From Patescibacteria group bacterium (lineage in GTDB: Bacteria > Patescibacteriota > Microgenomatia > UBA1400 > PJMF01): a stretch of 32,159 nucleotides of DNA. Below are positions 13,359-16,214 of the stretch, one piece after another. The stretch spans positions 1 through 32,159 of the forward strand of contig JAHJBU010000049.1 in NCBI GenBank assembly GCA_018813375.1. Direction: 5' to 3'. The position numbers were made by a program, and so were the translations under genes. The stretch's first letter is position 1, and each line of letters begins with the position of its first letter. Below the pieces are notes generated by a model. The model did no database searches. It saw nothing but the letters and a program-made list of their open reading frames with translations, and was not told the origin of the DNA.

Positions 13359-14594
13359 CTATTGCATGTGAGCATACAGAGTCATAGTTCCGTCTTCATG
13401 AAAAACTCTAGCATGATTGCCCAGAGAGGTTGCCCCTCGGTAAAAATAGGCCACTCCTTTTTTAACAGATTTAATGGCTAGATTATTAGAATCTGCCATA
13501 TCAACCCCACGATGAAAATTACCCTGATAAACAGAAGAGTAAGGAGTATTTCCATAACACTGAGTAATTCTAGGGTTATTCATAGGCCAAGTTGAGCCAC
13601 CACTACCAATTGATTTTGAGATACCAGATGAAATATCATTGCAAGAGCGAGATTCAAAATAAACATTTTTTGAAATCAAGACAGAAAATGGATCCTTATT
13701 CCTAGAGAAGTAGTAAGAATTGCCGGCAAATAAATCATCATTTTCATCCTCTTTTAGATTAAAGTAGCTGAAATGCAAGTGAGGACCGGTTGAGAAGCCA
13801 GTGCTACCCATAAATCCGAGCACTTCTCCTTCAGACACTTCTCTTTTACCAGCGAATTTGGCATTAACTAATGCTTGTAGCTCAGCTTGAGCTTCAGACA
13901 AAAGTTGTTGATATCTAGATTCATCGTGTTTAGTAACAACTAATAAATATTCTTTTTCCTGTTTTTGATTAGCCAGAGCAATTCTTTGTGTCTCTAGTTT
14001 TTTTTCAATTATTTCTAACTCGTTTTGTTTTTCCTCTTTAAGATTTTTTTGTTCATCGTAAATCAAGCGTTGAGATTCAGCCCGATGCATGGCTTCTATA
14101 GTTTGTTTTTTAGCTAATTTAATGTATTTATACTCAGATAAAAAATTATTAATGGAGTTGCCTTTGAATAATAAAAATATTGGTTCGATTTGAGTTCGTT
14201 TATATTGCTCACTAACTCTTTTTACTAAAATTGAGCTAAGCCTATCTAAAGAAATATTTAGACCACCAATTCTCTCAGTTAATTCTTTAATTTCTTGCTG
14301 TAACTTTTGAATTTGAAATAAGGTCTGATTTATTTGTAGCTGTCCAATTGCAATATTTCCATCAATAATGCCAATGGTAGTACTAAGTGATTGCTTTTCT
14401 TGCTGTTTCTGGCTAACTAAATTACTACATTCGCTAATCGTATCTCGAAGACATTGTTGTTTATCATCGACATTTTCACAAGAATTAGCATCACAGCTGA
14501 CTCCATAAGCAAATCTAGGACTTAAAAAAATACTCAACCCAATTAATAAAAAAAAGATGCTGATAAACGAATGCTGTCGAATTTTATTATGCAT
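13359..14594 (-). CDS. EnvC-like coiled-coil protein with an apparently circularly permuted M23/LytM metallopeptidase domain
   Basis: N-terminal signal-like segment, long coiled coil, then VSEGEVLGFMGSTGFSTGPHLHF, a linker, and WPMNNPRITQCYG...FHRGVDMAD...MTLYAHMQ-stop; downstream of ftsX on the same strand. Confidence 0.85.
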   Translation of the reverse strand: MHNKIRQHSFISIFFLLIGLSIFLSPRFAYGVSCDANSCENVDDKQQCLRDTISECSNLVSQKQQEKQSLSTTIGIIDGNIAIGQLQINQTLFQIQKLQQEIKELTERIGGLNISLDRLSSILVKRVSEQYKRTQIEPIFLLFKGNSINNFLSEYKYIKLAKKQTIEAMHRAESQRLIYDEQKNLKEEKQNELEIIEKKLETQRIALANQKQEKEYLLVVTKHDESRYQQLLSEAQAELQALVNAKFAGKREVSEGEVLGFMGSTGFSTGPHLHFSYFNLKEDENDDLFAGNSYYFSRNKDPFSVLISKNVYFESRSCNDISSGISKSIGSGGSTWPMNNPRITQCYGNTPYSSVYQGNFHRGVDMADSNNLAIKSVKKGVAYFYRGATSLGNHARVFHEDGTMTLYAHMQ

Positions 14595-14598
14595 AATT

Positions 14599-15465
14599 TC
14601 ATTTCATCATCCTTTTTACCGCGGTCATTCCGGAAAATCCTCCCAGTAAAATAGCAATTAGGGTTCCAGTACTTAGTTGAATGGCAAAGATTTCCCAGGG
14701 TACCGGCAGTAGAGAAATCGTACCTAAGAAATTTTTTAGCCAGGGAGTTAGATAGAGTAGAGCAACAAACATTATTCCCCACCCAACTAAAGATCCCACT
14801 AATCCATAAATGACCCCTTCAAAGAAAAAAGGTGCTTTAATAAACCAACTACTGGCACCTAAGAATTTCATAATCTGAATTGCATTTTTTCGTTGTGTGA
14901 CCTTCATACTCACCAGAGCAGTAATAATTAAAAATGAAGTTAGTCCTAGAACCATTACTGCAGCGATGCCAATATACCGCAGAGATGTTGTCCAGTTAGT
15001 TAATGAGTCAACAATGTCTTGTTGGAAAACTACTTCCTCAATTTCATCTAAAGTTTCTAAGTCATTCTTGATTTGTACCAAAGACGAAATTTCATCTGCC
15101 GAGACCTCTATGCTCGCGGGTAAAATATCAGCAGTCACTAGCTCTAGTAATAACGGATCATCCTTATTCTCCATGCGGTAAACAGATAAAGCCTCCTCTT
15201 GAGTAATAAGTTTAATGTCATTGACATAAGATTTTTGTTGTACTTGCTGACCCACTTGATTAATCTCACTGGTAGAAGCATCTAGTTCAAAAAAGCCAAT
15301 GACCTGAGGTCTAGTTTCAAAATAATTCAAGATTTGTTGAGTGCCTAAAATTATTAATGAAAAAAAGTAGGCTACAAATAAAGTCATTGTAGTTATCACT
15401 ATGGCGGTCAAACTCTGAAAAGGTGAGCGGCGAATATTGGTAAAAGCTGAGGAAAGAGGGTTCAT
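14599..15465 (-). CDS. ftsX: Cell division protein FtsX (ABC permease)
   Basis: Four-TM topology with a large extracytoplasmic loop, RRSPFQSLTAIVITTMTLFVAYF, KFLGASSWFIKAPFFFEGVIYGLVG; overlaps ftsE by 4 nt. Confidence 0.92.
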   Translation of the reverse strand: MNPLSSAFTNIRRSPFQSLTAIVITTMTLFVAYFFSLIILGTQQILNYFETRPQVIGFFELDASTSEINQVGQQVQQKSYVNDIKLITQEEALSVYRMENKDDPLLLELVTADILPASIEVSADEISSLVQIKNDLETLDEIEEVVFQQDIVDSLTNWTTSLRYIGIAAVMVLGLTSFLIITALVSMKVTQRKNAIQIMKFLGASSWFIKAPFFFEGVIYGLVGSLVGWGIMFVALLYLTPWLKNFLGTISLLPVPWEIFAIQLSTGTLIAILLGGFSGMTAVKRMMK

Positions 15466-16214
15466 TCTTTAATTTTCCTTTTTATTTTTTTCAGATTAAG
15501 CTTTTTCTTCTCATCCTTGAGTTTTTTTGGTTTGCTTTTGATTTTCTTTTTATGACTGTCAGATATTAGCTCGCCATCTTTTAACTCAATTTTTCTGGTA
15601 TCTTTTAAATCATCTAAAACCACTACGTCATGGGTAGCTAATAAAACCGTAGTGCCCAGCTCATTGATTTTTTTAAGGAGTCTAATAATAGATAAAGTTG
15701 TTTCTTGATCAAGATTGCCCGTGGGTTCATCAGCAAATATTACTGCTGGAGCAGTTGCTAGTGCTCGAGCAATACTGACTCTTTGAGCTTCACCGCCTGA
15801 TAATTCTTTTAGGAAAAGATTTGCCTTGTTTTCTAAATGAACGAGTTTCAATAGATCAGTGACTCTTTCCTCGATGTTTTTTTGTGATTTACCAGCAATT
15901 AAAAGAGGTAGGGCGATATTTTCCCAAACATTGGACTCAGGTAAAAGACGATAGTCTTGAAAGATTACTCCTATTTTACGGCGGTGATCTGGGAGTAATC
16001 TAGGTTTTATTTTTTCTAGATAAGTATCATTAAAAAGAATTCGGCCTTCATCGGGTTGATATTCCTTAGTAATTAGTCTCATAAGAGTGGTTTTACCACT
16101 CCCAGTGGGTCCAGTAATTAAAACTAACTCACCATCTTCAATTAGAAAACTAACTTTTTTTACTCCGTAGGTATCGTTAAAAAATTTTTTGGAGACTTTG
16201 TCAAAAATAATCAT
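15462..16214 (-). CDS. ftsE: Cell division ATP-binding protein FtsE with lysine-rich C-terminal tail
   Basis: Walker A GPTGSGKTT, signature LSGGEAQRVSIARAL, Walker B VIFADEPTGNLD; followed by ftsX. Confidence 0.93.
   Translation of the reverse strand: MIIFDKVSKKFFNDTYGVKKVSFLIEDGELVLITGPTGSGKTTLMRLITKEYQPDEGRILFNDTYLEKIKPRLLPDHRRKIGVIFQDYRLLPESNVWENIALPLLIAGKSQKNIEERVTDLLKLVHLENKANLFLKELSGGEAQRVSIARALATAPAVIFADEPTGNLDQETTLSIIRLLKKINELGTTVLLATHDVVVLDDLKDTRKIELKDGELISDSHKKKIKSKPKKLKDEKKKLNLKKIKRKIKE

Follow-up and report, generated by a model that had tools for sequence, protein, structure and literature searches.

In a Patescibacteria group bacterium, the gene directly downstream of ftsE–ftsX encodes a coiled-coil protein whose C-terminal M23/LytM peptidase domain is circularly permuted; the swapped order is genuine and not an artefact. 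As the third gene of an ftsE–ftsX–hydrolase operon, it probably specifies a peptidase that acts by itself and is gated by FtsEX. Catalytic activity, FtsX binding and gating are properties we infer.

The window, meaning the whole 32,159-nucleotide stretch of contig JAHJBU010000049.1 that we analysed, belongs to a 1.13 Mb genome that is 99% complete. The permuted M23 gene occupies positions 13359–14594 of the minus strand (stop codon included), starts with ATG and encodes 411 amino acids. As originally predicted, FtsE and FtsX are encoded upstream on the same strand: ftsX at 14599–15465 (PF18075 and PF02687, with a full-length but sub-threshold match to TIGR00439) and the inferred ftsE at 15462–16214 (assigned from PF00005 and its position directly before ftsX). 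The ftsE and ftsX frames overlap by 4 bases, and a gap of 4 bases separates ftsX from the permuted M23 gene. AlphaFold predicts a hydrophobic N-terminal helix, two long helices and a strand-rich C-terminal domain. In this model, residues 1–24 (14523–14594, minus strand) would form a signal or anchor, with the hydrophobic helix spanning 2–24 and the sequence in agreement, followed by a predicted antiparallel coiled coil of helices 45–134, 138–144 and 148–245 (13860–14462, minus strand). Cysteines lie just past the signal helix (CDANSCENVDDKQQCLRDTISEC; 14425–14495, minus strand) and recur in many relatives, where they perhaps form a disulfide-bonded N-terminal knot.

The Pfam Peptidase_M23 profile (PF01551) matched the 411-residue protein with 57.4 bits against a cut-off of 28.7 (E 1.7e-15), in two stretches that run through the profile in reverse: profile positions 58–88 align with residues 248–278, and positions 2–53 with the C-terminus. 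The M23 C-terminal half thus comes first (residues 249–278, 13761–13850, minus strand), with H272 and H274 in its HLHF motif. It is followed by an inter-half region of variable length in the alignment (residues 279–331, 13602–13760, minus strand), comprising the strand region after HLHF, a family-specific insertion and a Ser/Gly linker. The N-terminal half is placed last (residues 332–411, 13362–13601, minus strand) and carries H361xxxD365 and Y407-A-H409, with the stop 2 residues later. Read along the chain, the motifs, with every one quoted in the original prediction present, are VSEGEVLGFMGSTGFSTGPHLHF, WPMNNPRITQCYG, FHRGVDMAD and TLYAHMQ-stop, an order that departs from the canonical linear series HxxxD–YxH–HxH. 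Each half aligns separately to solved M23 chains; in the alignments we inspected, all of these chains have the N-half before the C-half, unlike the Patescibacteria domain. The zinc-ligand motifs HxxxD and HxH and the catalytic YxH (H361, D365, H272, H274 and H409) are nevertheless all present, as in the M23 peptidases LytM, lysostaphin and MepM.

These residues are under strong conservation, and the arrangement lies well outside what chance would produce. Among 25 full-length relatives of the same order aligned end to end, H272, H274, H361, D365, Y407 and H409 are invariant. Across 83 permuted domains, H272, H274, D365 and H409 (window numbering) remain invariant and H361 is conserved in at least 90%, which bears out the original prediction that the domain is permuted rather than degenerate. 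All 83 match Pfam M23 at E 0.001 or better; in some permuted families HxxxD is stretched to HRGxGWPGGxD. The C-terminus lies 2–6 residues past YxH in 81 of the 87 permuted proteins measured, so the breakpoint of the permutation is fixed. The same regularity ruled out a C-terminal read-through or frameshift, and a remnant of tandem domains was rejected too, no permuted protein among those scored having two copies of one half. The source genome additionally has genes for a large secreted protein whose tandem M23 domains follow the canonical order (contig C72) and for a LysM–M23 protein (contig C23).

We then looked at how widely the arrangement extends. A match was found in 55 of 56 relatives, mostly of the same family and order. 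Thirty aligned loci comprised 25 complete proteins with the same order, 1 cut by a contig end and 4 in which the same coil carries another C-terminal domain, identified as Peptidase_C39 in the one of these four that was checked. When 381 genomes of the phylum were scanned with a permuted-domain profile, matches spanning its full length turned up in many families. Neighbourhoods were then retrieved and each half was scored on its own, which gave 103 permuted and 25 canonical proteins. Members of this set were chosen for resembling the permuted domain and its FtsX, so the ratio does not measure frequency in the phylum. The 103 permuted proteins come from about 100 Patescibacteria genomes in about 40 GTDB families. 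An error of assembly or annotation, conceivable because the genomes are metagenome-assembled, is refuted by these homologues, which include proteins from single-contig assemblies. In three genomes of one family (loci L082, L085 and L100), ftsX is followed first by a permuted and next by a canonical coiled-coil M23 gene, so that a single gene cluster holds both orders.

Linkage to ftsX is similarly broad. ftsX is the immediate upstream neighbour at 30 of the 31 loci examined first; at the exception (L015) the two genes converge. The original prediction had proposed searching homologues for conservation of the permuted order beside ftsEX, and such conservation was indeed found: for 87 of the 103 permuted proteins, the start lies no more than 600 bp downstream of a same-strand ftsX. 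Three more, in longer frames, overlap an ftsX, and several of the rest sit at contig ends. About twelve permuted copies have no adjoining ftsX in the stretch seen, and one family (f39) includes an unlinked copy.

The partner behind ftsX is not always a permuted M23 protein. An ftsX stretch was available from 174 genomes: the neighbour carried a permuted M23 domain in 87 of them, a canonical one in 11, a C39-like domain in 18 and a CHAP domain in 11, while the remaining genomes had a partial, other or no neighbour. The C39-like and CHAP classes were set by motif, with a Pfam spot-check confirming 1 of 2 C39-like and 2 of 2 CHAP assignments. An HMM of the permuted family's coil matched 86 of 87 permuted, 18 of 18 C39-like, 11 of 11 canonical and 8 of 11 CHAP partners. 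Because it recognises every partner type, we describe one coil with exchangeable hydrolase domains. Loci in which a C39-like or CHAP domain replaces M23 on the same FtsX-linked coil include L018, L022, L024, L029 and others. On the ftsX tree, partner type switches at least 23 times, which points to repeated exchange of hydrolase domains behind ftsX.

The predicted structure is consistent with a single folded domain. Modelled whole, the protein reached a pLDDT of 81.0 and a pTM of 0.47; the domain alone reached 90.7 and 0.88, with nine strands. AGKREVSE, VLGFMG and HLHFSYF come earlier in the chain, and RITQ, VDMA, AIK, GVAYFYR, HARVFHE and MTLYAHM later, a set that we take, from sequence match and general knowledge, for the strands of LytM in permuted order. 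A whole-protein Foldseek search returned 8tzl (FtsE/FtsX/EnvC), 6tpi (EnvC), 6ewy (RipA), 8idc (RipC) and 4cgk (PcsB) among many coiled coils, all with weak E-values; coiled coils match unspecifically. By sequence, the coil region gave a sub-threshold match to the EnvC model NF008644 (E 9.8e-07), and the CC_PcsB coil profile recognises some of the Patescibacteria relatives. The original prediction had the coil grafted into the loop between YAH and the glycine-rich strand. The point of attachment does correspond to that loop of a canonical domain, but the coil itself is an N-terminal leader and not an insertion.

Searched against the PDB with Foldseek, the domain model retrieved no M23 structure, a gap that the permuted order, which handicaps a sequential aligner, likely explains, because the same model found a protein of swapped order in a viral library. 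There, whole-domain matches fell on cyanophage virion proteins (best E 6.3e-4), among them gp33 of cyanophage P60 (E 0.12, probability 0.47). The C-terminal domain of P60 gp33 and its relatives in S-CBP1 and DSL-LC07 has the permuted order and stops a few residues past YxH or FxH, as here. The phage domains have HxD where the Patescibacteria domain has HxH and are not recognised as M23 by Pfam; P60 gp33 is moreover part of the virion and joined to a tail lysozyme domain, without the FtsEX context of the Patescibacteria protein. In the loci examined (Synechococcus phage P60 gp33, L243:4778–7780; L245:120–572; L246:120–545), the apparently permuted M23-like domain ends internal virion or tape-measure proteins, with the STGPHLDVK half leading, H..RGSHGIDY and FSFLHG at the end and a stop shortly afterwards; in P60 it stands behind a Phage_lysozyme2 domain. 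Plasmids and phages searched by sequence for permuted M23 gave no match that covered 80% of the domain. The two-piece phage matches measured about 107 amino acids, as a canonical domain does, and a match in Synechococcus phage B23 was rejected since its sequence order is canonical.

On a domain tree built with the halves in the same order, the permuted label needs 2 changes, against a mean of 25.5 for shuffled labels. Constraining the permuted domains to a single clade gave a likelihood above that of the free quick search and was not rejected (p-AU 0.67). These trees are compatible with one old permutation but do not prove it.

Known FtsEX partners provide a framework for function. EnvC, the murein hydrolase activator that partners FtsEX in E. 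coli, shares with the Patescibacteria protein a signal, a coiled coil and an LytM/M23-type domain. The EnvC LytM domain, however, keeps the canonical order and lacks the zinc and catalytic residues (PMC11627006), whereas the Patescibacteria domain is permuted with its residues intact, so the contrast drawn in the original prediction holds. PcsB, CwlO and RipC are FtsEX-linked coiled-coil proteins that are themselves hydrolases, as the Patescibacteria protein would be; they carry cysteine-peptidase-type CHAP or NlpC/P60 domains, in contrast to a zinc M23 domain. Partners acting as hydrolases themselves are an established mode (PMC11627006; PMC12505981), and a review of such partners names EnvC, PcsB, CwlO, RipC and RipA and lists none with an intact M23 domain (PMC11627006). 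Precedent for a permuted peptidase fold, including wall hydrolases, comes from the circularly permuted NlpC/P60 enzymes (YaeF/G6R, LRAT-like; PMC6403190), which are unrelated to M23 in fold and catalytic chemistry. Our search of the open-access literature returned no earlier description of a permuted M23/LytM domain, and the Patescibacteria papers that we read only list ftsE and ftsX.

We weighed a self-acting, FtsEX-gated peptidase against other roles. A regulator of the EnvC or DipM type, itself non-hydrolytic, would recruit another hydrolase, switch it on and keep the residues for folding or zinc structure only, and it is suggested by EnvC being the nearest characterised homologue with a like partner and coil, its LytM domain inactive. 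EnvC has lost its catalytic residues, though, and these are near-invariant in the permuted domains. Amidase_3, the family that EnvC activates, is also absent from the source genome and from 52 of 56 relatives (E. coli and others served as positive controls), and in other Patescibacteria this coil bears a C39-like or CHAP hydrolase domain, making a purely regulatory role improbable. Because Amidase_3 is mostly absent and FtsEX partners that are hydrolases are established, we favour the self-acting peptidase.

Patescibacteria are often epibionts, and the protein, being secreted and in some copies free of ftsX linkage, could be an active hydrolase aimed outward at the host cell wall rather than at the cell's own septum. 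The strong operon linkage to ftsEX across the phylum and the resemblance of the coil to those of FtsEX-bound division hydrolases leave this reading similarly unlikely. Still less probable is that the halves form no single-chain site, being either separate degenerate domains or complementary only between two chains. FtsX acts as a dimer, which makes an exchange between chains conceivable, and the PDB search yielded no M23; yet the isolated domain is modelled confidently as one chain, M23 is the sole Pfam family matched in 83 of 83, each permuted protein scored has one copy of each half, and the linker and both halves are co-conserved.

As a self-acting peptidase, the protein would be exported and, in the manner of EnvC, PcsB and RipC, tethered by its coiled coil to the extracellular domain of FtsX. 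H361, D365 and H274 would hold the zinc, with H409 and H272 as catalytic histidines. ATP cycling by FtsE, relayed through FtsX, would move the coil and let the hydrolase cut, so that the permuted domain itself would cleave septal peptidoglycan cross-links or stem peptides. The permutation would shift attachment of the coil from the usual N-terminus of the domain to the loop after YxH, and coil movement could thus act directly on the catalytic domain. Gating might rely on a restraining arm, as in EnvC, or on positioning only. A wider proposal, to which we give even chances, is that permuted, catalytically intact M23 endopeptidases gated by FtsEX are phylum-wide and had a single early origin, the permutation being kept for coupling to the coil at the post-YxH loop, unlike in EnvC, PcsB and RipC.

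Pipelines in which such proteins are labelled EnvC, or simply M23, overlook the permutation as well as the likely activity. If the self-acting, FtsEX-gated reading is true, a very large phylum with hardly any cultured members would gain a named hydrolase for daughter-cell separation, and nature would have supplied a test of how force from FtsEX is passed to an enzyme.
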